A stretch of 26,976 bases of DNA, from positions 1 to 26,976 of the forward strand of contig CADBQK010000234.1 in the NCBI GenBank assembly GCA_902796775.1, in the 5' to 3' direction. The DNA comes from an uncultured Lachnospiraceae bacterium. GTDB lineage: Bacteria > Bacillota_A > Clostridia > Lachnospirales > Lachnospiraceae. This document shows, in pieces, positions 3,858 to 26,004 of this stretch; within the stretch, counting starts at the first letter, position 1, and every line of letters begins with the position of its first letter. A program made the position numbers and the translations under genes. The notes under the pieces are model-generated. The model did not search any database. It had not been told where the DNA came from and saw only the letters and a list, made by a program, of their open reading frames with translations.

Positions 3858-3885
3858 CCTCAAACTGATTTATGGTGGTTTGTTC

Positions 3886-4767: not shown

Positions 4768-5825
4768 AAGCTGCTGTATTATACGGTGATTATGACCTTC
4801 GATATGAAGAATTTCCCGAACCAGAGATTCAGCCCGGTTGTGTAAAGATTCAGGTAAAAGCCTGTGGAATCTGTGGCTCGGATATTCCAAGGATCACAGC
4901 CGGGGGGGCGCATTATTATCCCATTGTGCTGGGCCATGAGTTCTCCGGTATTATCACAGAAACCGCATCAGACGTGCATCGTCTTTCCGTCGGTGACCAC
5001 GTTGCTGCAGTCCCCCTGATTCCCTGCATGAAATGCCGCGATTGCGAGCAGGGGCATTACTCCCAGTGCAAGCACTACACCTTCATTGGTTCCCGTATTC
5101 AGGGCGGCTTCGGAGAATACGTTGTCCTGCCGGAACGCAATGCCGTTCGTATTGATCCTGACATCCCGTTTGAGCAGGGAGCCTTATTTGAGCCTTCTAC
5201 GGTAGCGCTTCACGGTCTTCGTCTCACCGGATTTCAGGGCGGCAAGGCCGTTGCCATTCTCGGCGGCGGTACCATCGGTCTTTTTGCTCTTCAATGGGCA
5301 AGAATTCTCGGTGCCGGAAAGATCGTTGTATTTGGGCGAGACAAAAAGCACCTGTCTGTTGCAAAACGCCTCGGGGCTGACGAAGTGATCAGCACCCTGG
5401 ATGATGGTTATCTTGATCAGGCCCTGGCTATGACAGATAATATCGGCTATGATTACGTATTCGAGGCTGCCGGTGCAGCTGCAACGATCCAGCTTTCCTT
5501 TGACCTTGTCTGTAATCACGGTTCCGTCTGTATGATCGGTACTCCGACCAAAAGCATTGAGTTCACCCGTCGGCAATGGGAGCTTCTGAATCGGAAAGAA
5601 TTCCACCTTACCGGGTCCTGGATGTCGGGCAGTGCTCCCTTCCCGGGAGACGAGTGGGCGCTGACAGCGCAGTGTTTTGCCGATGGGCGGCTGAAATATG
5701 ACCCGGAGATTTTCTATCGCCAGATTCCGATTCAAAACACGATGGAGATTGTGGAGGCGCTCCGGGAGCGCTCCAGGATCAAAGGAAGGATTCTTCTCCT
5801 TCATGAAAACGCTTCTGTGAGATAA
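4764..5825 (+). CDS. Zinc-dependent medium-chain dehydrogenase, galactitol-1-phosphate 5-dehydrogenase (GatD)-like
   Basis: Reversible oxidation of a hexitol phosphate to a ketose phosphate. In E. coli GatD this is galactitol 1-phosphate and D-tagatose 6-phosphate; here the reductive direction is inferred. Catalytic zinc ligands fit C37, H58 and E59. The structural zinc cysteines are C88, C91, C94 and C102, and the Rossmann GGGTIG is at 167-172. From memory of E. coli GatD, shared blocks include GAHYYPI.LGHEFSG, FIGSR..GGF.EY and the C-terminal GSWM...PFPG.EW. At the end of the second Rossmann strand the Asp expected of an NAD enzyme is Gly191-Arg192, suggesting NADP(H). The family also contains TarJ, the ribitol-5-phosphate dehydrogenase, so another polyol is possible. 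GAGGAGG precedes the ATG, and the start overlaps the LicD stop. Confidence 0.85.
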   Translation: MKAAVLYGDYDLRYEEFPEPEIQPGCVKIQVKACGICGSDIPRITAGGAHYYPIVLGHEFSGIITETASDVHRLSVGDHVAAVPLIPCMKCRDCEQGHYSQCKHYTFIGSRIQGGFGEYVVLPERNAVRIDPDIPFEQGALFEPSTVALHGLRLTGFQGGKAVAILGGGTIGLFALQWARILGAGKIVVFGRDKKHLSVAKRLGADEVISTLDDGYLDQALAMTDNIGYDYVFEAAGAAATIQLSFDLVCNHGSVCMIGTPTKSIEFTRRQWELLNRKEFHLTGSWMSGSAPFPGDEWALTAQCFADGRLKYDPEIFYRQIPIQNTMEIVEALRERSRIKGRILLLHENASVR

Positions 5826-5831
5826 AACAAT

Positions 5832-6548
5832 ATGAATGCTTTTATGCTGATGATGGGCGGCAGTGGAACCCGCTTCGGCGCAGAACGTCCGAAGCAGTTT
5901 ACACTGGTTCATGATCGTCCGCTTTTCTCCTACATTCTGGAAAAAGCCAATCAAATTCCGGAAATCAATTATATTACCGTTGTCTCACATCACTCCTGGT
6001 TGGACTATGTTCAGGAATGGTGCCGGAAGGTTGTGACCAATGTTCCGTTTCATGTTGCGGGTGGTGGAGACACCCGTTCTGAATCTGTATTCAACGGTCT
6101 TCATTCTCTCGAGGAAGTTCTGTCACCGGCAGATGTTGTCCTGATTCATGATGCGACACATCCTTACCTTGACCCGGATGCGGTTCGTCGGGTAGCAGAG
6201 GCCGCTTCCAAGTATGGCGGTGCAACCGTAGCGAGCAAAAATTATGACACCGTCTATCGAACAGACCAGGAAGGCTTTTTGGAAAAGGTTGAGCCACGTG
6301 AACTGATCGTCGCCGGAGCATCTCCTGAGGCTTTTCGCTATGGTGATATTCTGGATATTTATCAGAATTCAACCCCGGAAGAACTGCAGGCAATGACCTC
6401 TGCCGGGGCGATCGCGCTTGCGCACGACATTCCCATGCAGGTGATCCCGACATCCGTTCTGAACTTGAAGATAACATATCCCCCCGATATGGAGCTTTTC
6501 CTGCAGCTTGCAGACCACTACTTTTTCCCCGATCATTCAATGGATTAA
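5832..6548 (+). CDS. IspD/TarI-like polyol-phosphate cytidylyltransferase
   Basis: Uses CTP and a sugar-alcohol phosphate to make a CDP-polyol plus pyrophosphate. The nucleotide-binding loop is GGSGTRFG (residues 9-16), with PKQF at 20-23, the CTP-contacting TRSESV at 81-86, HDATH at 106-110 and a late LNLKITYPPDMELF segment. All are IspD/TarI-family landmarks, and the 238 residues match the family. It starts 7 bases after the dehydrogenase stop, with no strong Shine-Dalgarno, so translation probably depends on coupling. The dehydrogenase-cytidylyltransferase pairing mirrors TarJ-TarI. Because the dehydrogenase looks more like GatD, the substrate is more likely a hexitol phosphate than ribitol 5-phosphate. 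A methylerythritol-phosphate housekeeping role (IspD proper) is less likely in this operon. Confidence 0.85.
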   Translation: MNAFMLMMGGSGTRFGAERPKQFTLVHDRPLFSYILEKANQIPEINYITVVSHHSWLDYVQEWCRKVVTNVPFHVAGGGDTRSESVFNGLHSLEEVLSPADVVLIHDATHPYLDPDAVRRVAEAASKYGGATVASKNYDTVYRTDQEGFLEKVEPRELIVAGASPEAFRYGDILDIYQNSTPEELQAMTSAGAIALAHDIPMQVIPTSVLNLKITYPPDMELFLQLADHYFFPDHSMD

Positions 6549-6570
6549 AGACTGGAGGACGATTTTTATT

Positions 6571-7905
6571 ATGCAGAATCCGCTGAAAGAAATGGTGATT
6601 AAGCGTCAGAATGGCATTCACTGCGGTATTCCTTCCTTTTGCTGCGCAAATAAGATTGTTATTGAGGCAATACTCAGCCAGGCGTTGCGATTTGGTGATA
6701 CTTCTTTGATTGAAGCGACGTCCAATCAGGTGAATCAGGAAGGCGGCTACATGGCCATGACGCCGCAGGATTTCACCGATTACGTTTATCATATTGCAGA
6801 CAAGCTTGGCATCGCACGGGAGAAAATCTACCTGGGCGGCGATCATATGGGTCCTCTCCCCTGGATGGATCTGCCTGCCGCTGAAGCAATGGAACGCGCG
6901 AAGGTGCTTGTCACCATGTGTGTGAAGGCCGGATATAAGAAAATCCACCTTGACACAAGCATGCGTCTGGGCGATGACTCCCGAACGGAGCGTCTCTCGG
7001 ATGAGGTAATTGCCGAGCGCGGAGCCATTCTTTATCAGGCATGTGAAGAAGCCTGGCTGGAGATGAAGAAAACGAATCCGGATGAGATGCATCCGGTATT
7101 CGTCATCGGCAGCGAGGTTCCCGTTCCCGGCGGAATCAATGAAGAAGAAGCCGAGGGAATGGCCCTGACAAAACCGGAGGATTTCGAGAACACACTTCTG
7201 GCCTACAAGAAAAAGTTCCGTGAACTGGGCCTGGAAAGTGCATGGGAGCACATCATCGCAATTGTCGTGCAGCCCGGCGTGGAATTTGGTGACGACACGA
7301 TTCATAGATATAACCGTTCTGAGGCGGCCGCTCTCTGCAACACATTGAAAAAGTATCCCGATATTGTTTTCGAGGGGCATTCGACCGATTACCAGTCTCC
7401 GGTCAGTCTGAAGGAGATGGTAGAAGACGGGATCGCCATCATTAAGGTCGGACCGGCCCTTACATTTGCACTTCGTGAAGCGCTCTTCTCACTCTCTATG
7501 ATAGAGGATGAACTCATTCCGGATCCGGAGAAGCGCTCCCATTTCCGCGATGTACTGGAAGCTGAGATGGTTCAGGATCCCCGGCATTGGATAAAATACT
7601 ATTCCGGCACAGAGGATGAGAAAGCCATAAAGCGGAAATACAGTTTCTCAGACCGCAGCCGCTATTATATGTCGCGCCCGACTGTTGAGAATGCACGCAG
7701 GAAGCTCTTTGAGAACATCGACACACTGGATATTCCTATGAGTATGCTGAAGCAGTATATGCCCATGCAATACATCAAGGTGAGGGACGGCGTGCTCCCC
7801 TTGAAAGCCAGAGAACTTGTCAAAGACAACGTGGTCACTCTGGTGGAAGACTACAATTATGCAGTCAAATACAACTATATGATCAGCGGTGTGTTCATTC
7901 GATAA
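6571..7905 (+). CDS. GatZ/KbaZ-family protein (class II tagatose-bisphosphate aldolase non-catalytic subunit family; possible ketohexose-phosphate 4-epimerase)
   Basis: A TIM-barrel protein of 444 residues. Strong family blocks are IEATSNQVNQ (47-56), GGDHMGP (89-95), HLDTSM (126-131) and, later, SEVPVPGG, VVQPGVEF, GHSTDYQ and KVGPALTFALREALF. GatZ and KbaZ support the catalytic aldolase GatY or KbaY in tagatose 1,6-bisphosphate cleavage, but neither catalytic partner is present here. Relatives have been reported to act as ketohexose or ketohexose-phosphate C4 epimerases. Next to a GatD-like dehydrogenase and a cytidylyltransferase, supply of tagatose 6-phosphate from fructose 6-phosphate is an attractive inference. 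I took the ATG at 6571; GGAGG at 6554-6558 is a slightly distant 12 bases away. A plain catabolic role cannot be excluded. Confidence 0.88.
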   Translation: MQNPLKEMVIKRQNGIHCGIPSFCCANKIVIEAILSQALRFGDTSLIEATSNQVNQEGGYMAMTPQDFTDYVYHIADKLGIAREKIYLGGDHMGPLPWMDLPAAEAMERAKVLVTMCVKAGYKKIHLDTSMRLGDDSRTERLSDEVIAERGAILYQACEEAWLEMKKTNPDEMHPVFVIGSEVPVPGGINEEEAEGMALTKPEDFENTLLAYKKKFRELGLESAWEHIIAIVVQPGVEFGDDTIHRYNRSEAAALCNTLKKYPDIVFEGHSTDYQSPVSLKEMVEDGIAIIKVGPALTFALREALFSLSMIEDELIPDPEKRSHFRDVLEAEMVQDPRHWIKYYSGTEDEKAIKRKYSFSDRSRYYMSRPTVENARRKLFENIDTLDIPMSMLKQYMPMQYIKVRDGVLPLKARELVKDNVVTLVEDYNYAVKYNYMISGVFIR

Positions 7906-12738: not shown

Positions 12739-14022
12739 ATGCTACGTCTTCTGGCTTCTGGTCCGATTTTGTATATCGATCCCGGTACCGGGAGTATGTT
12801 GTTCAGTATTCTGATCGGCGTTCTCGGTGCTGCTTATTATTTCTTCCGTAGCGCCTTTATTAAGCTGAAGTATTCTGTATCCAACAACAAAACAGAGGTG
12901 AAGAGCGCCTCCCGTCTGGACTATGCGATCTTTTCTGATGACAAACGGTATTGGAATATCTTTAAACCGATCTGTGAAGAATTTGAAGCCCGTCAGGTTG
13001 AGCTCACTTATTTCACCGCCTCAGAAGATGATCCTGTGTTAAATCAGGATTTCCAATATGTCCACGCTGAATACCTTGGTCCCGGAAACAGAGCTTTCAC
13101 CCGCCTGAACATGTTAAACGCGGTAATTGTTCTCTCAACAACACCCAGTCTGGATGTCTATCAGTGGAAGCGTTCAAAGGATGCTCAATTCTATGTCCAT
13201 ATTGCTCATATGCCGAATGATATCTCTGCTTATGAAATGTTTGGACTTGATCATTACGACGCGATTCTTCTCTCCGGTGAATACCAGATTCGTCAGATTC
13301 GAGAACTGGAGCGTCTGCGAAATTTGCCAGAGAAAGAGTGTGTCCTGGTCGGGCTTCCCTATATGGATGATCTGAAAAGGCAGTTGGATGCTGCTCCTCC
13401 GAAACATTCCGAAAGAAAGACCGTTTTATTGGCGCCCTCCTGGGGAAAAAACGGAATACTGCGGAAATATGGTTCAAAGATGCTCGACGCCCTGATCGGT
13501 ACAGGATATGATATTGTGGTCCGTCCGCACCCTCAGTCCTGGTCTTCGGAAAAAAGTATGATGGAAGCACTGATGGAAAAATATCCGGATTCAGAACACT
13601 TTCACTGGAACCGAGACACCTCCAATTTTGAGGTGCTGCGTTGTTCCGATGTTCTGATCTCTGATTTTTCCGGTGTAATCTTTGACTACACTCTCGTTTT
13701 CGATAAACCGGTAATCTATACTGATATCTCTGCATTTGACAAATCTGCATGGGATGCTGCCTGGATTGACGAGGAACTGTGGACCTTTCAGGTATTGCCC
13801 AAATTGGGTGAGCAACTGGAAGATGACAGGCTCGATCACATCAAAGAAGTCATCGACCGAGTTACGGATGAACCGAAATATCAGATTGCCCGGAATACCG
13901 CACGCGCTGAAACCTGGGTTTATGCCGGAGAAGGTGCCCGCCGGACAGCTGATTACCTGATTGCCAAACACACCGCACTGACAGGCGCTTTCTCCGGCCA
14001 GGAAGAGTCTGATCTCAAGTAA
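12739..14022 (+). CDS. Membrane-anchored CDP-glycerol/CDP-polyol phosphotransferase
   Basis: A 427-residue TagF-related GT-B enzyme with a different build from the one upstream. Residues 8-38 form an N-terminal hydrophobic segment with the YIDPGTGSM motif (12-20), a recurrent N-terminal motif in otherwise poorly described membrane proteins. The catalytic part includes IAHMPNDIS (H157, candidate first catalytic His), LAPSWG (231-236), RPHP (262-265, second His) and SDVLISDFSG (303-312). It would transfer polyol phosphate from a CDP-polyol to a lipid-linked acceptor at the inner membrane face. It may be the priming enzyme, with the larger TagF-like protein as polymerase, or it may use a different CDP-polyol. 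GGAGG at 12729-12733 overlaps the end of the previous gene. Confidence 0.83.
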   Translation: MLRLLASGPILYIDPGTGSMLFSILIGVLGAAYYFFRSAFIKLKYSVSNNKTEVKSASRLDYAIFSDDKRYWNIFKPICEEFEARQVELTYFTASEDDPVLNQDFQYVHAEYLGPGNRAFTRLNMLNAVIVLSTTPSLDVYQWKRSKDAQFYVHIAHMPNDISAYEMFGLDHYDAILLSGEYQIRQIRELERLRNLPEKECVLVGLPYMDDLKRQLDAAPPKHSERKTVLLAPSWGKNGILRKYGSKMLDALIGTGYDIVVRPHPQSWSSEKSMMEALMEKYPDSEHFHWNRDTSNFEVLRCSDVLISDFSGVIFDYTLVFDKPVIYTDISAFDKSAWDAAWIDEELWTFQVLPKLGEQLEDDRLDHIKEVIDRVTDEPKYQIARNTARAETWVYAGEGARRTADYLIAKHTALTGAFSGQEESDLK

Positions 14023-14039
14023 AGGAAGATAGTGATACA

Positions 14040-16805
14040 ATGTCTGTTCTGACAGCTCTCTATACTTTGTTGATCCGTCCCCTGGAGCTGGGATTTGAAG
14101 TTGTTTATGTGGTTGTCAACCGTGTCATCAACAATCCCGGTCTTTCCATCATCGCCCTCAGCCTTGCAATGAACTTTCTGGTACTTCCTCTTTATCGCAG
14201 GGCCGATGCGATGCAAGAGGAAGAACGCGCGCTGGAAGCCGGAATGGAAAAATGGGTTACTCATATTCGCAGGACCTTTACCGGTGACAAACGGTTCATG
14301 ATTCTTCAGGAGTATTATCGCCAGAATCATTATAAACCGACATATGCCTTGAGGGGTTCCTTCTCCCTTCTTCTCGAGATCCCTTTCTTCATTGCTGCTT
14401 ACCGTTTTCTTTCCGGCCTGGAGCTTCTACATGGAGTATCCTTCGGCCCCATCATAGATTTGGGTGCCCCGGATGCTCTGATCTGTATCGGTGAATTACG
14501 GGTCAATCTGCTGCCCATTCTGATGACCCTGATCAATGTTGTTTCCGGTGCAGTCTATACCAAAGGGATGCCTCTGAAATCGAAGGTGCAGTTGTACGCA
14601 ATGGCACTGGTCTTTCTGGTTTTTCTGTATTCTTCTCCTTCCGGTCTGGTATTCTACTGGACATTGAACAATATTTTTTCGCTGGTCAAGAACCTGTTTT
14701 ATAAGCTGCGAAACCCTCGGGCGGTTCTCTATGTTCTTGCCTCTGCTTTCGGGTTAGGGCTGATCGCTGTTTTCGGCTTTCTCTATCCCGTTAAACTGAA
14801 ACCGAAACTGTTCTTTGTAGCTCTCGGAGGTATGCTGCAGCTTCCTCTTCTGCTGCGGTTGATCCCCTTTCACTTCAGCTTTGCTGGTCGTCGTATAGAT
14901 CCCGGTTCTGATAACCGGCTGTTCATCATTTCTGCGCTCATAGATACCGTTCTGGTCGGTGTCATGATTCCTTCGGCGGTGATCTCTTCCTCTCCGGCAG
15001 AGTTTATCAATGATGTCTCTCACTTCTCTTCCCCGTTGTCCTATACCCTCTATTCCGGGCTTATCGCACTGGGAACATTTATGCTCTGGGCCGGTCTGTT
15101 CTATTATCTGATGACACCTCAGAGTCGGTCTATCTTCAGTAAGATCTACTTTTCTCTCTCCTGTGTTTTTCTTTTTGATTATCTGGTGTATGGAAAAGGT
15201 CAGAGTAATCTCTCTGCGACGCTTCAGTATGAGAAACAACCCTGGTTTCCACGAGATCTCCAGCTCCTGAATTTATTTGTTGTCTTCGTTCTGGTTGCTG
15301 TCATCTATTACTGTGCTGTACGTCTTCCCAATCTCACCAGGGTGCTGTCTGTATCAGCGCTCCTTGCAGTCTGCGGAATGAGTGTTCTGAACATCAGAAA
15401 TACAACTGTTACTCTCCGTTCTTCTCTTTCATATATCAAAGAACAGTCTGACACTGCTGCGAAAGTGCAGGAAAACGGTCTCATCCATCTCAGCAGGAAT
15501 GGGAAGAATGTTGTCTTTCTGATGCTTGATCGTGCAATGGGCAGTTACACGCCTTTTATTATGGATGAGAAGCCTGAACTGATTGAGAAATTTGATGGAT
15601 TTACGGCTTATCATAATACTATTTCCTACGGTCGCATTACGATCTATGGTGCCCCTGCAATGATGGCAGGATATGAATACACTCCTGCTGCCATCAATGC
15701 CCGGTCAGAGGACACGTTTCTGCAGAAGCACAATGAATCCTCTCTTGTCATGCCGGTTCTGTTTGATAGCAATGGTTTTCAGGTAACTCTCTGCGATCCC
15801 CCGCTCGCTGGTCTTGAGTATGTCCCGAACCTGACCATTTATGATGATTATCCGAACATCAAGACTTATATGATCAACAAGCGTCTTCAACTTGTTGATA
15901 ACGATATCTCTGATTTTACGGAGCCAATCCGAAAACGTAATTTTTTCTTTTTCGGTCTGACGAAAGTTGCTCCTCTGCTCTTCCAGAGTTCCCTCTATAA
16001 TGCGGGTTTATATAACGAGGCCATTCCATCTGATTCTCCGGAGCGTATGACAGAGCAGATTCGATCCGGCTTGTCCACGGCCAAAGGCCTTTCCAAAATG
16101 TTTATGAACACCTATTCTGTCATGCACGAACTGAAATCTCTCACGCGAATTGATGACACCAGTGAAAACCACTTTTTCTTTATGTGCAATGAGATGACCC
16201 ACGAGGTGAACATGCTCCAAGAGCCGGATTATGTTCCAAGCCTGGTCGTGGACAATACCCCCTTTGACGACGATCTGTCCACACGTTACAATATCAACGG
16301 GCGCCATATGAGGATGACCACACCGGGACAAGTTGCTCATTATGACTCGAATATGTCTGCCATGATTCAGCTAGCAGCATGGTTTGATTTTCTCCGTGAA
16401 GAGGGCGTCTATGATAATACGCGCATCATTTTGGTGTCGGATCATGGAACAAGTGCCGGGCAGTTTGACGCACTTGAAATTGATGATGTGTTCGATGCCC
16501 AGGAGGTAGCAGCGCTTCTGATGGTAAAAGATTTTGATGCCACAGGCTTCTCTTTCTCAGAAGAATTTATGACCAACGCGGATGCTCCTCTCATTGCCAT
16601 GAAAGATCTGATCGAAAATCCTGTAAACCCCTTCACAGGGAAAGAACTGAATGATGAGGAAAAATACGCCCATGACCAGGAGGTTCTCCACTGTAAGATT
16701 GCCATGCCGGAGTTCAGAGACGGTTTTACCTACCCTGACGGTGACTGGTATTCGGTCCATGGTAATATTTATGAGAAATCCAATTGGACACACATTGAAA
16801 AATAA
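14040..16805 (+). CDS. Fusion of a YidC/Oxa1-like membrane domain to an LtaS/sulfatase-superfamily domain
   Basis: A 921-residue protein. Residues 1-225 resemble YidC/Oxa1: an amphipathic start, GLSIIALSLAMNFLVLPLYRR, a charged cytoplasmic hairpin at 51-95 and SSPSGLVFYWTLNNIFSLVK (198-217). The groove arginine of true insertases is N45 here. Residues about 228-450 add further membrane helices. Residues about 480-830 look like the alkaline-phosphatase/sulfatase superfamily: VVFLMLDR (D497, metal ligand), SYGRITIYGAPAMMAGYEYT (529-548; T534 candidate nucleophile), MTHEV (H721) and VSDHG (D801, H802), laid out like LtaS. The catalytic part should face outwards. It probably transfers or removes phospho-substituents on polymer or lipid; which is unknown. 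No LtaS or conventional YidC gene lies nearby. Confidence 0.82.
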   Translation: MSVLTALYTLLIRPLELGFEVVYVVVNRVINNPGLSIIALSLAMNFLVLPLYRRADAMQEEERALEAGMEKWVTHIRRTFTGDKRFMILQEYYRQNHYKPTYALRGSFSLLLEIPFFIAAYRFLSGLELLHGVSFGPIIDLGAPDALICIGELRVNLLPILMTLINVVSGAVYTKGMPLKSKVQLYAMALVFLVFLYSSPSGLVFYWTLNNIFSLVKNLFYKLRNPRAVLYVLASAFGLGLIAVFGFLYPVKLKPKLFFVALGGMLQLPLLLRLIPFHFSFAGRRIDPGSDNRLFIISALIDTVLVGVMIPSAVISSSPAEFINDVSHFSSPLSYTLYSGLIALGTFMLWAGLFYYLMTPQSRSIFSKIYFSLSCVFLFDYLVYGKGQSNLSATLQYEKQPWFPRDLQLLNLFVVFVLVAVIYYCAVRLPNLTRVLSVSALLAVCGMSVLNIRNTTVTLRSSLSYIKEQSDTAAKVQENGLIHLSRNGKNVVFLMLDRAMGSYTPFIMDEKPELIEKFDGFTAYHNTISYGRITIYGAPAMMAGYEYTPAAINARSEDTFLQKHNESSLVMPVLFDSNGFQVTLCDPPLAGLEYVPNLTIYDDYPNIKTYMINKRLQLVDNDISDFTEPIRKRNFFFFGLTKVAPLLFQSSLYNAGLYNEAIPSDSPERMTEQIRSGLSTAKGLSKMFMNTYSVMHELKSLTRIDDTSENHFFFMCNEMTHEVNMLQEPDYVPSLVVDNTPFDDDLSTRYNINGRHMRMTTPGQVAHYDSNMSAMIQLAAWFDFLREEGVYDNTRIILVSDHGTSAGQFDALEIDDVFDAQEVAALLMVKDFDATGFSFSEEFMTNADAPLIAMKDLIENPVNPFTGKELNDEEKYAHDQEVLHCKIAMPEFRDGFTYPDGDWYSVHGNIYEKSNWTHIEK

Positions 16806-16827
16806 CTGATACTTTGGAGGAATGACT

Positions 16828-17724
16828 GTGTCTCTGACAAGAAAGCAATTTGACATTCTGGAAAAGCTGATTGACGAAGAAAAGCCTCTGTCACAGCGTC
16901 AGCTCGAAGAGTCTACGCCTTATTCTCTGGGAACCGTAAACCGCACAATCAGAGAACTGACAGAAATGGGATACTTACGTTCCGGTCAGATTACCAAAGC
17001 AGGTTTGGATTCTCTTGAGCCATATCGGGTAAAACGAGCAATCATCGTTGCGGCTGGCTTCGGCTCCAGAATGGTACCCCTGACTTTTAACACACCAAAA
17101 CCACTGGTTCGTGTCCACGGCGTCCGGATTATTGACGGCCTGATTGACTCCTGCCTGGAAGCGGGGATCACCGAGATCTATATTGTCCGCGGTTATCTGG
17201 CCGAACAGTTTGATCAGCTGCTTTATAAATATCCTATGCTGAAGTTTCTGGAGAATCCGATCTATAATGAGGCCAATAACATCAGTTCTGTGATGGTTGC
17301 CCGTTACCTGCTCTCCAATTCCTATGTCTTTGAGGCAGATCTTCTCATTACAAATCATGACCTGATAAAGCGATATCATTACTGCTCCAATTTCCTTGGA
17401 ATAAAAGTCTCCCGGACAGATGACTGGTGCGTCCGTGTCAAAGATGGGGTCATTCTTGAAGAGAAAGTTGGCGGTGAGGGAGAAGATATCTGGCAGCTGG
17501 TTGGTATTTCTTACTGGAGTGAAGCCGACGGGCACAGACTGGCTCAGGATATTCAGGATGTTTATCAGTCTCCCGGAGGCAAAGAGCGCTACTGGGAACA
17601 GGTCCCGCTGGTCTATAAGCAGGAACATTATAGCGTAGAAATACGGAACTGCCTGCAGGAGGATATCATTGAAATTGATACGTTTAATGAACTGAAAGCG
17701 ATCGACCGAACCTACGATGTATAA
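16828..17724 (+). CDS. Winged-helix + LicC/PntC-like cytidylyltransferase
   Basis: The enzyme part (about residues 70-290) is a sugar-nucleotidyltransferase fold of the LicC type: AIIVAAGFGSRM followed by PLTFNTPKPLV, then IYIVRGYLAEQF and NEANNISSVMVARYLLSN with an ADLLITN metal-site region. LicC makes CDP-choline from phosphocholine; its relative PntC makes CMP-2-aminoethylphosphonate. The product would be the LicD donor. Residues 1-62 form a winged helix (TRKQFDILEKLIDEEKPLSQ onward, ending in a YLRSG wing), suggesting DNA binding or regulation. GGAGG at 16816-16820 is 7 bases from a GTG at 16828, preferred over an in-frame ATG at 16822 only one base away. No choline kinase lies in the window, and an aminoethylphosphonate-type importer follows, which favours a phosphonate substrate. 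Confidence 0.85.
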   Translation: MSLTRKQFDILEKLIDEEKPLSQRQLEESTPYSLGTVNRTIRELTEMGYLRSGQITKAGLDSLEPYRVKRAIIVAAGFGSRMVPLTFNTPKPLVRVHGVRIIDGLIDSCLEAGITEIYIVRGYLAEQFDQLLYKYPMLKFLENPIYNEANNISSVMVARYLLSNSYVFEADLLITNHDLIKRYHYCSNFLGIKVSRTDDWCVRVKDGVILEEKVGGEGEDIWQLVGISYWSEADGHRLAQDIQDVYQSPGGKERYWEQVPLVYKQEHYSVEIRNCLQEDIIEIDTFNELKAIDRTYDV

Positions 17725-17875: not shown

Positions 17876-18898
17876 ATGAAACACATAATGGCTTTTGTAC
17901 TCTCTGCCCTTTTGCTTATGGCTTCCGGCTTTTCTGCCTTTGCAGAACCGGCTGTTCCTGTTGCACCTGAAAGGACGGCAGAACTGAACACCGACAGCAA
18001 TAAAGTTGTGATCTACTCCGGTGCCGAAGAGTATCGCAATGAATATTTTAAGCAGAGACTGTCTGAAGAGTTTCCTGATTATGATATTGTCATTGAATAC
18101 ATGCCCACGGGGAATCTGGCTGCCAAATTGGCCGCAGAAGGCACCGATACGGATATGGACATCTTCTATGATCTCGACTTCAGCTATGCGGGGTTGGTTG
18201 AACAGTACCTCGCAGATGTTTCCGATTACGATCAGTCGATCTATGTTGACGACTGCAAAGTAGCAAGTGGAAAGTACCTGGCCGCTACCAGAAACGGTGG
18301 GGCAATTATTGTTAATCCTTCGGTCCTGGAAGCAAAAGGTCTCGATCTCCCGACTTCCTATCAGGATCTGTTAAAACCGGAATACAAAGGCTTGGTTTCC
18401 ATGCCGGATCCAAAATCATCCGGAACAGGTTATATGTTTGTGAAGAGTCTCGTGAATGTCTGGGGTGAAGAGGAAGCTTTTGATTATTTTGAAGCACTCT
18501 CTGAGAATATTCTTCAGTTTACTTCATCCGGCTCTGGTCCGGTAAACGCGCTGATACAGGGAGAAGCTGCAATTGGCCTCGGAATGACGGCGCAGGCTGT
18601 TACTGCGATCAATGAAGGCGCAGAACTGGAGATTCTTTTCTTTGAGGAAGGCTCTCCGTACTCACTTTATGGCTATGCAATGCCGGAAGGCAAGGAAGTG
18701 CGCAAGGCTGTCAAAGATGTTTTTGATTTCTTCTATACAACGCTTGTCCTTGAAGATAAGGCTCTTTTCTATCCTGAGCAGGTCTTTATCGGACAAACGA
18801 ATGAGATTGAGAATTATCCGACAGATATCGCATATGCAGACATGAGCAACAATACGACCGCCGAAAAGACAAGACTTTTAGAGAACTGGGAATTCTGA
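17876..18898 (+). CDS. Extracellular solute-binding protein, Fe(III)/2-aminoethylphosphonate importer type
   Basis: The substrate receptor of the importer encoded downstream, 340 residues. A Sec signal peptide (residues 1-23) ends SAFA before EPAVP, with no lipobox cysteine, unusual for a Gram-positive binding protein. The mature part begins KVVIYSGAEEYRNEYFKQRL and contains RNGGAIIVNPSVLEAKGL and SGSGPVNALIQGEAAIGLG, typical of the FbpA/AfuA/PhnS cluster of type II binding proteins. The Tyr-Tyr pair used by ferric-binding members is not seen, which argues against iron. 2-Aminoethylphosphonate or another small phospho-compound is a reasonable guess given the LicC-like gene just upstream, but a polyamine or sugar phosphate is possible. 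The start is fixed by GGAG at 17861-17864. Confidence 0.85.
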   Translation: MKHIMAFVLSALLLMASGFSAFAEPAVPVAPERTAELNTDSNKVVIYSGAEEYRNEYFKQRLSEEFPDYDIVIEYMPTGNLAAKLAAEGTDTDMDIFYDLDFSYAGLVEQYLADVSDYDQSIYVDDCKVASGKYLAATRNGGAIIVNPSVLEAKGLDLPTSYQDLLKPEYKGLVSMPDPKSSGTGYMFVKSLVNVWGEEEAFDYFEALSENILQFTSSGSGPVNALIQGEAAIGLGMTAQAVTAINEGAELEILFFEEGSPYSLYGYAMPEGKEVRKAVKDVFDFFYTTLVLEDKALFYPEQVFIGQTNEIENYPTDIAYADMSNNTTAEKTRLLENWEF

Positions 18899-18987: not shown

Positions 18988-19773
18988 ATGGATAAAATAA
19001 TCGTCGAAAACCTTTCAAAAGCCTTTGGTTCATCGGGTGTTCTTCATGATCTCAGTTTCAGTATCCGCGAAGGTGAGTTTCTTTCCATTCTAGGTCCATC
19101 GGGCTGCGGTAAAACAACCATCCTGAGAATTCTGATTGGCTTGGAATCGCCCGACAGCGGGGCAATATATAAGGACGGCAAGGAAATCACCCGCCTTCCG
19201 CCTTATCAGAGAAACATGGGAATTGTTTTCCAGAACTATGCGCTCTTTGAAAATATGTCCGTCCTGCAAAATGTGGAATATGCACTTTTGAAAAGTTCTT
19301 CCACCAAGGCGGAGTACAATCCGAGCACCGCACGCTCCAAGGCAAAACTGATGCTTGATATTGTCGGGTTAACCGACCATCTCTCCAAGAAGCCACGGGA
19401 ACTTTCCGGCGGCCAGCAGCAGCGTGTAGCAATTGCCCGTACGCTCGCACTGAACCCGGATGTGATTCTGTTTGACGAGCCGATGTCCGCATTGGATGTT
19501 GATACCAGACTCTCTCTCCGCAGCGAGCTGAAGGAGCTTCAGAAGCATTTCGGCACAACCATGGTCTATATCACACATGATCAGGAAGAGGCCTTTGCGC
19601 TTTCCGACCGTATTATGGTGATGGACGCCGGGGTCATTCATCAGCTTGATACACCGCACAATCTGATTCACCACCCTGCTGATGATTACGTAAAATGCTT
19701 TGTTATCAAGAACATTGACATTAAGATTAACAGCCTGATTCAGTATGCCCAGCGCAGAGAGGAGTTCTTATGA
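18988..19773 (+). CDS. ABC importer ATP-binding protein (PhnT/FbpC/PotA-like)
   Basis: ATPase driving the importer. Walker A GPSGCGKT (36-43), Q-loop glutamine 82 in VFQNYALF, signature LSGGQ (139-143) within LSGGQQQRVAIARTLALNPD, Walker B VILFDE (159-164), D-loop SALD and switch histidine 197 (THDQEEA) are all intact. At 261 residues it ends soon after the ATPase core and lacks the C-terminal TOBE-type regulatory domain of most 330-370 residue relatives, so substrate-linked feedback at that site is not expected. It overlaps the permease gene by four bases (ATGA at 19770-19773). The transported compound is inferred only from neighbours. Confidence 0.9.
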   Translation: MDKIIVENLSKAFGSSGVLHDLSFSIREGEFLSILGPSGCGKTTILRILIGLESPDSGAIYKDGKEITRLPPYQRNMGIVFQNYALFENMSVLQNVEYALLKSSSTKAEYNPSTARSKAKLMLDIVGLTDHLSKKPRELSGGQQQRVAIARTLALNPDVILFDEPMSALDVDTRLSLRSELKELQKHFGTTMVYITHDQEEAFALSDRIMVMDAGVIHQLDTPHNLIHHPADDYVKCFVIKNIDIKINSLIQYAQRREEFL

Positions 19774-21362
19774 GGTCCGGCGGTCTCTCAGTGAGAAAAT
19801 GGTCTCCAGCGGCTTCTTTAAAACTATTGCTTTGCTGTTTCTGGCTCTTTTCCATCATACTCCCTTTATTGCGGATGCTCTCCACTATCGCTACTGTGGA
19901 TGTTGCTTCCGTCATCACCGCCAGAAAGTTTTCCCGAGCTTTTTCTCATTCCATTGCCGCTTCAACCGTTTCTACAATGATTTCGGTTGTCCTCGCCGGC
20001 ATTCTCTCCTGGTGCGTCGCCCGTACCAACATCAGACATAAAACGATTTTGAATACGCTCATCACCGTGCCTATGCTCATTCCTTCCATCTCTCACGGGA
20101 TGGGACTGATCATCATTCTGGGTGCCAACGGCTGGCTGGCGAGACTCCTGGGGCTGACCGGTGGAATCTATGGCTTCTGGGGAATTGTTATTGGGTCTGT
20201 CATGTACTCCTTCCCTGTTGCCTATCTGATGCTGTATGATGTTCTTCTGTATGAAGATGCCACCCCTTATGAAGCTGCGGATGTAATGGGGTTGAAAGCT
20301 GCAGACAGGTTTTTTGCCATTACTTTTCCCTATCTACGCAAGCCTCTAATTTCTGTGGTGTTTGCTGCTTTTACGATGATTATTACCGACTACGGTGTCC
20401 CGCTTATGGTCGGGGGAAAATATACGACACTTCCTGTCATGATGTATCAGGACGTCATCGGCATGTTGGATTTCGGCAAGGGGTCTGTTATTGGCATGAT
20501 TCTGTTGATTCCGGCGCTGATTGCCTGTATTCTGGATATGGCAAACAGAGATAAGGGAAATGCAGCTTTTATCGGCAAGCCCTACACCCCAAAAGATAAT
20601 CGGTTGAGAGATACCTGTGCCATTCTGATCATAGGTTTTCTCATAGTTCTGATTTTTCTCCCCATCGGTTCTTTTGCAGTTCTCGGATTCATTAACAAGT
20701 ATCCGATTGATATGACCCTGTCTCTCAGTAATATTACGCAGGCGGTTCACATGGGTGCGTTAAAGTACCTCTGCAATTCCCTCGTAATCGCATCGGTTGT
20801 CTCTGTCTTTGGAACCGCACTTGCCGTTTTTAACGCGTATATGACTGCACGCAATAAAACGAAAATGAGCTATGTCCTGCACCTTATGTCTATCACCTCA
20901 CTGGCAATTCCAGGCATCGTTCTTGGCCTGTCCTATGTCATGTTCTTCAAAAAATCACCGATTTATGGTACATTTGCCATTTTATTTCTCGTTAATTCAA
21001 TGCACTTCTTCGCTTCTCCCTACCTGATGGCTTACAACACCTTTGGTAAAATTAACGAGAATCTGGAAGATGTCGGCTCCACACTCGGTATTCCTCACTT
21101 TCTGATCATCCGTGATGTCCTTCTCCCCCAAGCTGCCGGAACCATTCTGGAAATGGTGAGTTATTTTTTTGTAAACTGTATGATGACGATCTCCGCGGTC
21201 TCTTTCCTTTCGAATGTAAACACGAAGCCGGTCGCCCTAATGATCACACAGTTTGAAGGCCAGATGCAGCTCGAGTGCGCGGCGTTCGTTTCTCTGTTGA
21301 TTCTGGTTGTGAATATTATTATGAAGTATGCAATCTTCCTGATAAAGAAAAAGCTTTCCTGA
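19770..21362 (+). CDS. Fused two-domain ABC importer permease (PhnU/FbpB-like)
   Basis: A single 530-residue chain with two BPD_transp_1 membrane domains and about twelve helices. The first has its ATPase-contacting EAA loop at about 168-190 (EAADVMGLKAADRF...FPYLRKP), the second at about 430-455 (EDVGSTLGIPHFLIIRDVLL then P). A linker near residues 265-285 (NRDKGNAAFIGKPYTPKD) joins them. Fused permeases of this size occur among ferric-iron and 2-aminoethylphosphonate importers. It is translationally coupled to the ATPase by a four-base overlap. The start at 19770 is supported by GAGAGGAG just upstream, overlapping the ATPase end. No obvious truncation or frameshift. Confidence 0.9.
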   Translation: MRSGGLSVRKWSPAASLKLLLCCFWLFSIILPLLRMLSTIATVDVASVITARKFSRAFSHSIAASTVSTMISVVLAGILSWCVARTNIRHKTILNTLITVPMLIPSISHGMGLIIILGANGWLARLLGLTGGIYGFWGIVIGSVMYSFPVAYLMLYDVLLYEDATPYEAADVMGLKAADRFFAITFPYLRKPLISVVFAAFTMIITDYGVPLMVGGKYTTLPVMMYQDVIGMLDFGKGSVIGMILLIPALIACILDMANRDKGNAAFIGKPYTPKDNRLRDTCAILIIGFLIVLIFLPIGSFAVLGFINKYPIDMTLSLSNITQAVHMGALKYLCNSLVIASVVSVFGTALAVFNAYMTARNKTKMSYVLHLMSITSLAIPGIVLGLSYVMFFKKSPIYGTFAILFLVNSMHFFASPYLMAYNTFGKINENLEDVGSTLGIPHFLIIRDVLLPQAAGTILEMVSYFFVNCMMTISAVSFLSNVNTKPVALMITQFEGQMQLECAAFVSLLILVVNIIMKYAIFLIKKKLS

Positions 21363-21648: not shown

Positions 21649-24600
21649 TTATTTTGCTTTTACGCTGAGACCGGATTCGTATGGACTTGTGAAGATTGTT
21701 CCGGCACCGTTTATACAACGTATCGTATACACATAGGTGTTTCCGGCTTTGGCGGTCTTGTCCTCAAAGGACAGGCTTGTTGTATCGGCCAGTCTCTTCC
21801 AGCCTCCGTCGCCCAGCTTTCTGAAAACACGGTACTTTTCTGCACCAGAAACAGCATTCCATTTGACGGTCACCTTTCCGATGGATGCGCTCGCGCTGAC
21901 AAGTTTGGGTGCGGCGAGCTTGAACGGTACTGAAACTTGCAGGCCGGTGGAATCATAACCAGTGATGAAGTTGCCGTTCTCATCGATGCCTCTTACGGTG
22001 AAGTAATAGGTATGATTCACGGTTGCAGTTGGGTCATCATAGCTGGTTCCCTTGACATCCGCCAACTTCTTCCATCCACTGTTAGCAGTTCTCCAGAAGA
22101 CCCGGTATTTTGTTACTCCGGAGACAGCCTTCCAGGTAATCCTGACGGTTGCTTTGGAAGCCGTGGAAGATACAACCTTTGCGCTGATCAACTGAGGAGA
22201 ACCATAGAACACAATCTCCTTGCTGCCGGACGCAGAGCTCTTCTGCGATCCCTTCAGTGCAAAGATCCTGTAAATATAGCGTGTTCCGGAAGAGGCGGTG
22301 GTGTCTGTGTATGTAGTACCGGAGGTTGTACCTATCGTTGACCAGCTCCCACCGTCCAGTTTGCGGTCAATCTGGTAACTTGTTGCTCCTGAAACGGCAG
22401 ACCACTTCAATACAACGCCGCTTGCTCCGTTTGAGATGGAAGAAATCGTCGGCGTTGACAAGCCATTTGTACTGAATGACTGGGTAATTCCACTGGCTCT
22501 GTACCCGCCCATGTTATTGCCATTTTCGTTATAGGCACGAACAGTATAGGTATATTTGTAGTCTTTCAGAACATCTGTATCCGTCCAGGTCAGCGTTGTA
22601 TATCCACTGACTGTTTTAACGTGTGACCAGCTTTGTGCACCTTCGAGCTTTCTGTAAATGCGGTATCCCTCGGCACCATCTACACTCTTCCACTTGACGG
22701 TAATACCGTTGGTGACGACAGCCGGCGTGACCAGATCCGGTGTCATCAGGAAGTTGACTGTGAGGCCGGTTCCATTATAGTCGCTGACCCTCTCCCCGGA
22801 GGCATTCAGGCAGCTTACCGTATAAGTGTACTTGACTCCGGATTTTGGCGGTGTATCCGTATAACTGGTTCCGGCAAAGCTGCCAACCAGTGTGCTGTTC
22901 GACCAGCTTTTTCCAGCTTCCTTTCGGTAGATACGATAGTTTGTGATGCCGTCACAGGCCCTCCAAGAAAGTGTAACTGTACCCGTTCCGGAGGCAATTG
23001 CACCGTCCACTTTGATCTCCTGCAGGATTGGCGTCACATGACGTGTAAAGGGATTTTTCGTCGTTGCCGCAAAATAACTTAATTCTGTCTTGCCATCGTT
23101 GTCGACACACCTGACGGAATAGTAGAAGTCCTCATTATCCTTGTTCTTGATCGATTCATCCACAAAGCTTGTCCCATGCACTGTCTTGACAAGGGCGTAA
23201 GCTTCTTCTGTGGTATTTCTCTCGCGTCTGTAGACATTGTAGTATTCGACTCCGTCTACTTTATTCCACTTGACGTAAATGCCTTCCGTCTTGTTTTCAC
23301 AGGAGATTAACGTCGGACCATTCTTGATCGATGGGTCTTCATTATACCCATAATAGGTTGCTTTCAGTCCGACAGCATCATACCCGCTGACCTGTTTGCC
23401 ACCTGACTCGCAGGAAACAGTATATGTATACGTCGTTCCGCTCGTCACCTTTGTATCAGTATAGACAAGATATTCTCCGTCTTTGGTTCCGGCAGTCTTT
23501 TCATGTACACTCCAGCTGCCATTCTCCGTTTTCCGTAGAATTCTATACGTAGTGATATCCGCTACCGGAATCCATCTGATCTTGATGCCTTCGGATACGA
23601 CTTCGATATCCTTAAGCTTAGGAGGTCCGTAGTAAAGGGTCGCAATACCGACAGTTCCATCCGCCTCCATGCTCGAGACCTTCCCGTCCTTATTCAGTAC
23701 GCAGACCGCATAACGATAAGTTACGCCGGAAGTCAATTCCTTATCGTTGTCTGTGAAGACCGTATCCGTGGTAGTCCCGATTGCAACATAGGCTGCACCC
23801 GGCTTATCAATTTTGCGGTAAACCTGATACTTCGGTGCTGTCGGCACGATCTCCCAAGTGATGTTGATACCTTCGGGAACCGGCTCTGCCTTTGTCAGAT
23901 TCGGGCTGGGATAATACATGCCCTTAATCCCGTTGGCATCATAAGTGCTCTTGTATTCCGCCCCTGTCGAATCGACACAGCGCACTGTGTATATGAACTC
24001 CGTTCCGATAAATCCTGTTGCCCCGGTATCCACATAGGTGATCTGTGCAGAAGAATACGGACCATAGGCTTTTTCGATGCGAATCCATTCTGTATCGCCG
24101 ACTGCCTTGCGGTAGATCTGATAATACTCTGCTCCTTCGACCTTCTTCCAGGTAACCGTAATACCCTCATCGCCGCTTATTCCATCTACACCAATGCCGG
24201 TCTTGACCAGAATCGGGTAGTTCGTATATCCTGTTGATATTCCAGCAGAATCAAAACTGCTGATAAAGGCACCCGAAGCATTCACACAGCGGACAGTGTA
24301 GACATACTCGCTGCCTGCGGCCGCATTCTTATCCGTATAAGTCGTCGTTGTAACATCTGCAAGTTTCTTCCATCCGCCGCTGGGCATTACTTTGCGGAAG
24401 ACTCTGTAATAAGTTACACCCTTGACGGCATGCCAGTTAATTGTTACACCATCTTTTGTAAGCGTCGGCTGCTTATCAAGTTCCGGCGCATCATAGAAGG
24501 CTATTGTCTTTCCTGTCTCATCATAGATTCCTATGATGCTGTTGCTGGAATCCACACACATCACGCGGTAGGTATAGGTGTTGTCTGACGAGACATCCTT

Positions 24601-26004
24601 ATCTGTCATCGAGGTTGTGTTGGAGAAGTAGAAAGACTTGATGGTGTTGCTGTTCCAAGACTCATTCGAAAGTTTTCTCTGAATCTTGTACTTGGTGCAT
24701 CCAGGCACGTCTGTCCACTTAATTTTTACGCCGCCGACGACATTCTCAACCGATGTTACCTGGACCTTGGTCAAATACATTCTGGAGGTTCCGGCTTTGA
24801 AATCGCTCGTATAGCTTTTTCCATCTGCACTAATGCAGCGCACCGTATAAGCGTATGTATTTCCAGAGACGACCTGTTTATCCGTAAAGCTTGTGCCACT
24901 TACATTGCCAAGCCCAACCCAGGATGAATCTCCAGGTCCTTTATGGAATACTCGGTATTGCGCAGCTCCGACGGAATTCCATGTTACTCTGATTCCGTTC
25001 TCTACAACCGTCACCGAACTGATCTTCGGTGTATCATAGCTCCAGTAAGTCGCCGTTTTTCCAGTACTGTCATAAGAGCTGGTGAACTTGCTGCCATCAT
25101 TGGAAACGCACCGGACCGTATAAGTATAACTGGTTCCGTTGGATACGCCGGTATCTATATAGCTCACCGCGGTTGTATCGGCCAGTTTCTTCCAACTTGA
25201 TCCGTTTTTCCGGAATACACGGTATTTATTACCGCCGGTAACAGGATCCCAGGTAATTTTGAGGCCATTCCCGGACTTAGTAACCGACCGCAGAACAGGT
25301 GCAGAGAGAGAGAACCCACTTTTTGCATCAACCTGTACATTCTCTTCAGGAGAAGTCACAACCGTAACTTCCTCTTCAGGTGCATCTGTAGTCTGAGCAA
25401 CTGTCTCAGTCACAGCTTCTTCCGTGGTTTCTGTCACAGCTTCGGTATCGGAAGATGCAGTACTTTCTGCCTCGTTTGTCTCAGCCGGTGCTTCTGTATC
25501 CGAAGTTGCTTCCGGTTCCGTCACTGTTTCTTCTGTGACGATCGTCTCTGTCTGTACTTTTTCCAGGGCAACGGAAACCTGTACCGCAGAACCCGCCTCA
25601 ACTGGCTGCACAGTAAACGCCACCGCTTCCTGTGCCTCATATCCTTCACAGCTTGCACTGTAGTAATATGTGCCCGGTTCCAAATAATAGTACCCGTCGG
25701 ATCCAGCCTGGATCTCTTGGAGCTCTTCATTCGCATTCTTCTGGTAGATCGTCACTTTAGCCGCCTCGGGCGTGCCCTTGACGATAACCGGAACAGATTC
25801 AGTATTACTCCCTGTTTCGTTTGTATCATTCGTCTCTGCTGGCGCACCTTCGACGCCGTCAACGGAAACGGTCTCTTCTGCATCCACTGTGACTTCCGTT
25901 TCCCCTTCCGCAAAAGCGGAGCTGACCGGAAGCATGGACGCGAACATCACGATGCAGAGAAAGAGCGCCATCCAACGATGAAATACTCCTGTCCTAACCT
26001 TCAT
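21649..26004 (-). CDS. Large secreted protein with about 13 FN3-like repeats
   Basis: A 1451-residue exported protein. The signal peptide is residues 1-32 (MKVRTGVFHRWMALFLCIVM onward, ending SSAFA before EGE). Residues 70-150 resemble a PEGA/carboxypeptidase-regulatory-like beta domain (KVTIYQKN...GYYYLEPGTYYYSASCEGYE). About 150-230 is a Glu/Thr/Val-rich flexible linker. From 231 to the end there are some 13 fibronectin-III-like units of about 90-105 residues, each with a core like W..V.GA..YRVFRK followed by W.KLAD..GTSYTD and YTYTVRC. The chain ends at the last unit (SVKAK) with no LPXTG, membrane anchor or SLH domain, so attachment must be non-covalent or absent. AAGGAG precedes the ATG; promoter and terminator are both visible. 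The ligand is unknown. Confidence 0.88.
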   Translation of the reverse strand: MKVRTGVFHRWMALFLCIVMFASMLPVSSAFAEGETEVTVDAEETVSVDGVEGAPAETNDTNETGSNTESVPVIVKGTPEAAKVTIYQKNANEELQEIQAGSDGYYYLEPGTYYYSASCEGYEAQEAVAFTVQPVEAGSAVQVSVALEKVQTETIVTEETVTEPEATSDTEAPAETNEAESTASSDTEAVTETTEEAVTETVAQTTDAPEEEVTVVTSPEENVQVDAKSGFSLSAPVLRSVTKSGNGLKITWDPVTGGNKYRVFRKNGSSWKKLADTTAVSYIDTGVSNGTSYTYTVRCVSNDGSKFTSSYDSTGKTATYWSYDTPKISSVTVVENGIRVTWNSVGAAQYRVFHKGPGDSSWVGLGNVSGTSFTDKQVVSGNTYAYTVRCISADGKSYTSDFKAGTSRMYLTKVQVTSVENVVGGVKIKWTDVPGCTKYKIQRKLSNESWNSNTIKSFYFSNTTSMTDKDVSSDNTYTYRVMCVDSSNSIIGIYDETGKTIAFYDAPELDKQPTLTKDGVTINWHAVKGVTYYRVFRKVMPSGGWKKLADVTTTTYTDKNAAAGSEYVYTVRCVNASGAFISSFDSAGISTGYTNYPILVKTGIGVDGISGDEGITVTWKKVEGAEYYQIYRKAVGDTEWIRIEKAYGPYSSAQITYVDTGATGFIGTEFIYTVRCVDSTGAEYKSTYDANGIKGMYYPSPNLTKAEPVPEGINITWEIVPTAPKYQVYRKIDKPGAAYVAIGTTTDTVFTDNDKELTSGVTYRYAVCVLNKDGKVSSMEADGTVGIATLYYGPPKLKDIEVVSEGIKIRWIPVADITTYRILRKTENGSWSVHEKTAGTKDGEYLVYTDTKVTSGTTYTYTVSCESGGKQVSGYDAVGLKATYYGYNEDPSIKNGPTLISCENKTEGIYVKWNKVDGVEYYNVYRRERNTTEEAYALVKTVHGTSFVDESIKNKDNEDFYYSVRCVDNDGKTELSYFAATTKNPFTRHVTPILQEIKVDGAIASGTGTVTLSWRACDGITNYRIYRKEAGKSWSNSTLVGSFAGTSYTDTPPKSGVKYTYTVSCLNASGERVSDYNGTGLTVNFLMTPDLVTPAVVTNGITVKWKSVDGAEGYRIYRKLEGAQSWSHVKTVSGYTTLTWTDTDVLKDYKYTYTVRAYNENGNNMGGYRASGITQSFSTNGLSTPTISSISNGASGVVLKWSAVSGATSYQIDRKLDGGSWSTIGTTSGTTYTDTTASSGTRYIYRIFALKGSQKSSASGSKEIVFYGSPQLISAKVVSSTASKATVRITWKAVSGVTKYRVFWRTANSGWKKLADVKGTSYDDPTATVNHTYYFTVRGIDENGNFITGYDSTGLQVSVPFKLAAPKLVSASASIGKVTVKWNAVSGAEKYRVFRKLGDGGWKRLADTTSLSFEDKTAKAGNTYVYTIRCINGAGTIFTSPYESGLSVKAK
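21652..25314 (-). repeat. Tandem FN3-unit coding array
   Basis: Thirteen diverged in-frame units of about 270-310 bases encode the FN3 domains. The recurrent codons for YRVFRK, WKKLAD, GTSYTD and YTVRC recreate short similar DNA blocks. Spacing varies and the units are clearly diverged at the DNA level, so this is old domain duplication under selection and not a recent satellite. Confidence 0.8.

Follow-up and report, generated by a model that had tools for sequence, protein, structure and literature searches.

A YidC-like domain fused to a putative outer phosphotransferase, and its TagF-like partner, in an uncultured Lachnospiraceae bacterium

The stretch of DNA analysed here, called the window, comprises 26,976 nucleotides of contig CADBQK010000234.1 from an uncultured Lachnospiraceae bacterium. 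Its forward strand encodes a 427-residue TagF-like protein with an N-terminal membrane helix (positions 12739–14022; hereafter T) and, directly downstream, an open reading frame of 921 residues (14040–16805; hereafter F), in which a YidC fold, linker helices and an enzyme resembling LtaS and PbgA are joined in one chain. Sixteen bases after F, and on the same strand, begins the gene of an HTH protein combined with a LicC/PntC-like cytidylyltransferase (16822–17724; PF00483, PF12804 and a MarR-type HTH), followed by those of an importer of the 2-aminoethylphosphonate (AEP) type, i.e., a PhnS2-like solute-binding protein (17876–18898), a PhnT2-like ABC ATPase (18988–19773) and a PhnU2-like ABC permease (19770–21362). 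The reverse strand encodes large proteins with fn3 and GH85_C-like matches (21649–26004 and 26142–26975), which are perhaps surface proteins. Elsewhere in the window, a TarJ-like dehydrogenase, a TarI/IspD-like cytidylyltransferase and a GatZ/KbaZ-like protein are encoded in a row (4764–7905) and may produce an unusual CDP-alditol, and the products of two LicD-family genes (295–1239 and 3880–4767) could share a CMP or CDP donor in the cytosol.

A sequence-only reading of the window had proposed that a YidC-like domain and a domain of the LtaS/sulfatase superfamily are joined in F, and this was confirmed by profile PF02096 and by the folds of both parts. Residues 1–222 (14040–14705) form a complete YidC/Oxa1-like fold and match PF02096 with 75.9 bits, against a curated cut-off of 35. 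They are followed by an unconserved two-helix linker (residues 223–282, 14706–14885; model helices 226–248, 253–265 and 268–274), then by a PbgA/LtaS-like arrangement of five membrane helices with a long helix that connects to the outer domain (residues 283–486, 14886–15497), and finally by a catalytic domain with the fold of the alkaline phosphatase superfamily (residues 487–921, 15498–16802), which presumably lies outside the membrane. The expected profile support was obtained for the YidC part, whereas Pfam Sulfatase reached 18.6 bits in F, under its cut-off of 25; the fold fits nevertheless, and relatives of F in two other loci passed the cut-off (33.5 bits in L057 and 25.8 in L069). By analogy with the superfamily, we take T534 (codon 15639–15641) to be the nucleophile and D497 (15528–15530), D801 and H802 (16440–16445) to be metal-type ligands. 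Neither these four residues nor H721 (16200–16202) vary in any of the 236 aligned homologues (F of the window, 119 database rows and 116 of 126 ORFs from the loci); all five had been picked out in the sequence-only reading.

Transferases and hydrolases of this superfamily were not told apart by comparing the fold of the outer domain, and the domain could be pictured as one that hydrolyses sulfate, phosphate or phosphonate esters on polymers, with T and the importer serving in salvage of what is released. Such hydrolases and sulfatases, however, carry a Cys or Ser that is converted to formylglycine within a C/S-x-P-x-R motif, whereas the nucleophile is Thr in all 236 homologues, and in F the motif is missing at this place. 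Several loci, moreover, hold genes for the activation of phosphonates or phosphocholine, i.e., parts of a building pathway, and the hydrolytic reading seems highly improbable. The outer domain of F is very probably a phosphotransferase.

Conservation within F is highest in the YidC part, with a mean entropy of 1.18 versus 1.77 in the catalytic domain. Columns with one residue in at least 95% of the sequences account for 50 of its 222 positions, compared with 0 of 60 in the linker, 6 of 204 in the five-helix part and 61 of 435 in the outer domain, which argues against a decaying anchor. For comparison, 30 housekeeping YidCs were used, namely the separate one of the same genome (C4:7468–8265) and 29 from relatives of its own order. 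M162, T163 and N166 are fixed in the F family and occur in 0, 3 and 0 of these 30, respectively; N156 is fixed in 232 of 236 homologues and found in none of the 30, and F192 is another residue that, set against the same 30, is fixed in the YidC part of the F family. Position 45 in the groove, which presumably corresponds to R366 of E. coli YidC and to R72/73 in bacilli, lacks a positive charge throughout the family (Asn in 212, Ser in 21, Gly in one, Cys in one and a gap in one of the 236). Loss of the groove Arg was considered as a mark of changed function and rejected, since Asn also occupies this position in 19 of the 30 housekeeping YidCs (L077 and L082–L110; Lys in 8 and Arg in 3). This Asn in housekeeping YidCs may interest insertase researchers in its own right.

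The groove of F resembles, at this position, those of most housekeeping YidCs of the order, as would be expected if the domain served as a docking or assembly part or were still an insertase, keeping T close to the outer enzyme or assisting its folding, with the outer domain drawing on bulk phospholipid in the manner of LtaS or EptA, T using cytosolic polymer precursors and no flipping involved. Insertion and assembly are the known role of YidC, and lipid scrambling has been seen for many insertases (PMC10491306, in the accessible part of the preprint). Against this stand the conservation of the YidC part, which exceeds that of the catalytic domain, and its own set of fixed residues, neither of which a passive anchor would need; a further point against it came from T.

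T, to which the sequence-only reading had not drawn attention, matches PF04464 with 47.7 bits (cut-off 22.1), and its residues H157 and H264 (the latter within RPHP), which we equate with the active-site His residues of TagF, are invariant in 67 sequences, including 15 fusions of YidC to a T-like domain that are described below. The fold match of T ties with UDP-GlcNAc 2-epimerases; against the PDB, phmmer gave no match for T and a profile search did. T is likely a CDP-alcohol or CMP-phosphonate phosphotransferase, a putative assignment. The neighbours of proteins with the architecture of F, where the sequence-only reading had suggested looking, proved informative in that T occurs in 55 of 76 F loci (in 47 of them on the same strand and adjoining the F block, with a gap of −4 to +8 bases between T and F in 26 of 39 measured), and the 18 genomes that hold the remaining 21 loci all encode T. 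In a sample of 247 genomes of the same order, F was found in 8 and a close T in 9, the ninth of which precedes an F that runs off its contig; the co-occurrence has a Fisher p of 2.9e-14, with the ninth genome scored as a mismatch and the kinship of the 247 genomes ignored. At the level of the genome or the locus, T was found wherever F was examined and, judging by this genomic association, T is the partner of F. An outer enzyme that draws on bulk phospholipid would not need T, and we hold it rather unlikely that the YidC domain docks, assembles or inserts proteins instead of moving lipids. Because a CDP/CMP-dependent inner transferase always accompanies F, T is suggested to make the donor lipid for it. 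F itself is present in two copies in 21 of the 76 loci, in three copies in 8 and in four in 4, which may reflect several acceptors; loci with three or four such paralogues include L040, L054, L057, L060, L069 and L074.

Other neighbours of F in the window fared less well. In searches by phmmer with one seed per window gene, by which distant relatives may be missed, the 76 loci yielded relatives of the ABC2 exporter permease in 2, TarI in 2, LicD in 1, and TarJ and GatZ in 0. The teichoic-acid-type surroundings of F were accordingly rejected as a conserved setting, and with the permease in just 2 loci the idea that the YidC groove docks an exporter fell away. Glycerol phosphate, the substrate that a likeness to LtaS had suggested, gained no specific support, as the head-group genes near F are those for choline phosphate or phosphonates, with none of them within five genes in 51 of 76 loci. 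An LTA-like polymer might still be imagined, for which T would prime a lipid and F would extend a glycerol- or ribitol-phosphate chain outside in the manner of LtaS; the TarI- and TarJ-like genes of the window would suit it, as would the outer fold and the Thr nucleophile, which resemble those of LtaS and LtaP. The rarity of TarI and TarJ across the loci speaks against such a polymer, and so do the nearby cytidylyltransferases, whose amino-alcohol phosphate or phosphonate substrates cannot be chained, having a phospho group at one end and an amine at the other. LtaS, furthermore, combines its Thr nucleophile with Glu as the first metal ligand, whereas F has Asp. We consider polymer extension of this kind very unlikely.

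The linkage of T, YidC and the outer enzyme was also seen in a second architecture. PF02096 is present in all but four of 120 listed relatives of F (the exceptions being P0129, P0143, P0168 and P0169), and also in relatives with frames of 606–722 residues, the five examined of which consist of a YidC fold followed by a T-like domain (L111:7480–9378, L112:5188–7005, L113:6838–8655, L114:5217–7127 and L115:2993–5128, all from the same order; three of the five were scanned with Pfam). The order sample also held 11 distant T matches in frames of 631–766 residues, whose alignments to T start no earlier than its residue 57; ten were examined as loci (L127–L136) and the eleventh is L115. YidC lies in front in 10 of 10 loci chosen by the T match, and T behind in 5 of 5 chosen by YidC; since the distant matches leave out the start of T, YidC replaces the membrane helix of T itself. 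A separate relative of the F outer domain, adjacent or a few genes off, accompanies YidC–T in 10 of these 15 loci, and none was detected near it in the other 5. These separate enzymes keep the D, H, D and H residues in 10 of 10 cases, with Thr as the nucleophile in 9 and Ser in 1, and two of four scanned candidates passed the Pfam Sulfatase cut-off. They are more distant relatives of the F outer domain, close standalone copies of which were absent from the 247 genomes at E<=1e-10. YidC is thus joined either to the outer enzyme, with the inner one free, or to the inner enzyme, with the outer one free. That both kinds of fusion are formed among the same three partners is strong evidence, of a genomic kind, that these would work as a single machine; the three parts are almost certainly linked.

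What the machine might handle was approached through the head-group genes. The best NCBIfam matches of the three importer subunits all lie under the equivalog cut-offs (TIGR03261 phnS2, 167.7 bits versus 392.75; TIGR03265 PhnT2, 306.8 versus 457.7; TIGR03262 PhnU2, 368.8 versus 593.25). The cytidylyltransferase is closer to LicC (1jyk, E=9.3e-24) than to Tde-PntC (6pd1, 4.6e-10). In the accessible text of PMC6697681, AEP-specific Tde-PntC is distinguished by Glu104 and Glu196 from choline-specific LicC with Asp105 and Asp192. The window enzyme has Glu (E171) at the Glu104 position, its match to LicC Asp105 assuming that the numbering of the printed LicC chain is shifted by 20 residues. Glu was found there in 5 of 5 importer-linked enzymes (that of the window included) and in 0 of 12 choline-kinase-linked ones (Ser in 10, Cys in 1 and Asp in 1). 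Among 17 phosphonate-labelled rows, Glu occurs in 9 (a count that includes L036, whose "PepM" label rests on a distant class V aminotransferase only), His in 6, Ser in 1 and Pro in 1, and among unlabelled rows Glu occurs in 7 of 10. The Glu196 position, E259 in the window, is non-discriminating, with Glu also in 11 of 12 choline-kinase rows and Asp in 4 of 5 importer-linked ones. In a tree of 44 of the 45 enzymes, one having been dropped, the window enzyme shares a seven-row group (100/99) with the other four importer-linked rows and with L063 and L036; a second group contains 11 of the 12 choline-kinase rows plus one L063 row, and L021 branches separately.

The cytidylyltransferase and the PhnS/T/U cassette accompany T and F in the window and in L141, the only T–F loci in which the importer was seen, and YidC–T in L131, L132 and L133; searched by phmmer with the proteins of the window, the 76 loci held no relatives of PhnS or PhnU. 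A full AEP operon (Ppd, PepM, AEP transaminase and cytidylyltransferase) occurs with T and F in L063, L065 and L072, a cytidylyltransferase with choline kinase in L138, L139, L143, L144 and L113, and PepM with an iron alcohol dehydrogenase in L054, L055, L058 and L111. Beside the dehydrogenase lies a triple fusion of NTP transferase, CTP_transf_like and PEP mutase domains (L058:3702–5738, L054:12538–14613 and L055:12580–14616). At the PntC specificity position, the NTP transferase of this fusion carries His, a residue also found there in rows of L060, L069 and L111 and possibly indicative of another phosphonate, e.g., hydroxyethylphosphonate. Within five genes of F, 24 of the 76 loci have a nucleotidyltransferase (phmmer E<=1e-5, a threshold at which some may be of the sugar type), 7 a choline kinase, 11 phosphonate genes (L036 again included) and 25 any of these. 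For the smaller neighbour clusters (at most 14 loci), ten representatives were looked at, and only head-group genes were taken further. The genome of the window itself (91.8% completeness) contains neither a PEP mutase over the cut-off nor a choline kinase match, and the import of ready-made AEP is therefore the simplest reading. AEP is probably the head group in the window.

Comparison of sequences and loci shows the parts, the invariant catalytic residues, the company that T and F keep and both kinds of fusion; beyond this, we infer that T and F form one transmembrane machine that decorates the cell surface. Imported AEP would be converted to CMP-2-aminoethylphosphonate by the enzyme encoded at 16822–17724, and T, anchored on the cytosolic side, would use a cytidylylated phospho-alcohol or phosphonate, in the window most likely CMP-AEP, to load the head group onto a membrane lipid. 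The most plausible carrier is diacylglycerol, with polyprenol as the alternative, a guess based on the reactions of PF04464 proteins and LtaS. The YidC-like domain would then let the loaded lipid pass into the outer leaflet and return after use, and the outer domain would receive the head group on T534 and hand it on to a polymer or lipid of the cell surface. A related enzyme, EptA, takes phosphoethanolamine from a phospholipid. LtaS-type enzymes use glycerol phosphate from phosphatidylglycerol outside the cell, according to the available text of PMC8035078. If the lipid is loaded on one side of the membrane and consumed on the other, it has to cross, and in the accessible part of the preprint PMC10491306, lipid scrambling by E. 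coli YidC is described in vitro, in liposomes, and scrambling was seen in simulation for all tested members of the Oxa1 family; these points led to the model in which T charges, YidC moves and the outer domain transfers. Since insertases in general are said to scramble lipids, this activity cannot single out the role of YidC in F. The earlier suggestion that the groove presents or flips a lipid-linked substrate is the one that fits best, in view of scrambling by E. coli YidC and of both fusions, unlike the exporter docking that was proposed beside it. We give roughly even chances to the YidC part being a lipid transporter rather than an insertase or scaffold, and the machine as a whole appears equally finely balanced between true and false. 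Slightly short of even is the fuller claim that the YidC fold is a dedicated transporter of lipid-linked head groups in a three-domain machine and supplies the missing step of phosphonate transfer.

Each part has known counterparts. F shares with YidC, Oxa1 and SpoIIIJ the full fold, PF02096, a helical region at the cytosolic hairpin and P-S-G-L-x-x-Y-W near the end, but it is fused to an enzyme, has fixed residues of its own and coexists with a separate housekeeping YidC. Like LtaS, PbgA and EptA-MCR, it has five helices and an outer domain with a Thr nucleophile, D and D-H ligands and an invariant His; unlike them, it carries a YidC domain in front and has T as a partner; it also has Asp as the first metal ligand where LtaS has Glu, and it stays under the Pfam Sulfatase cut-off. 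T belongs with TagF, TarL and Cps3D (PF04464) by family, fold and the catalytic-type His residues H157 and RPH264P, yet it is short, has its own membrane helix and is linked to F instead of the WTA pathway. In the CsbB–GtcA–YfhO system, as presented in the accessible text of PMC8035078, loading of a lipid by an inner enzyme is followed by its translocation through a transporter and by transfer of the group to a wall polymer by an outer enzyme; the proposed machine would follow this three-step logic with parts from other families and a phospho or phosphono head group in place of a sugar. With the Pnt and Lic pathways it would share the cytidylyl activation of AEP or phosphocholine by PntC or LicC, as set out in the available portion of PMC6697681, where LicD-like phosphotransferases or glycosyltransferases are noted in the neighbourhoods and the later Pnt steps were called "enigmatic" (2019); the words "sulfatase" and "glycerophosphotransferase" do not occur in its main text.

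No description of a YidC–phosphotransferase fusion was found in the open-access literature, as judged by titles and the openings of abstracts. The F family is large, with 5128 relatives at E<=1e-3 among 7999 scored, mostly known by score alone, and 6 of the 8 source-named relatives among the matches listed are called YidC insertase, so that a probable surface-decorating enzyme has been filed as an insertase. If the model is true, a YidC fold would move lipid-linked donors, which would give the scrambling seen in vitro a physiological use. The transfer step that follows CMP-aminoethylphosphonate, among those called enigmatic in the accessible text of PMC6697681, would become testable with two named genes, T and F. 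The machine, consisting of an inner CDP/CMP-dependent transferase, a YidC transporter and an outer phosphotransferase, would then be connected by fusions of YidC to the enzyme on the inner side in some loci and to that on the outer side in others.
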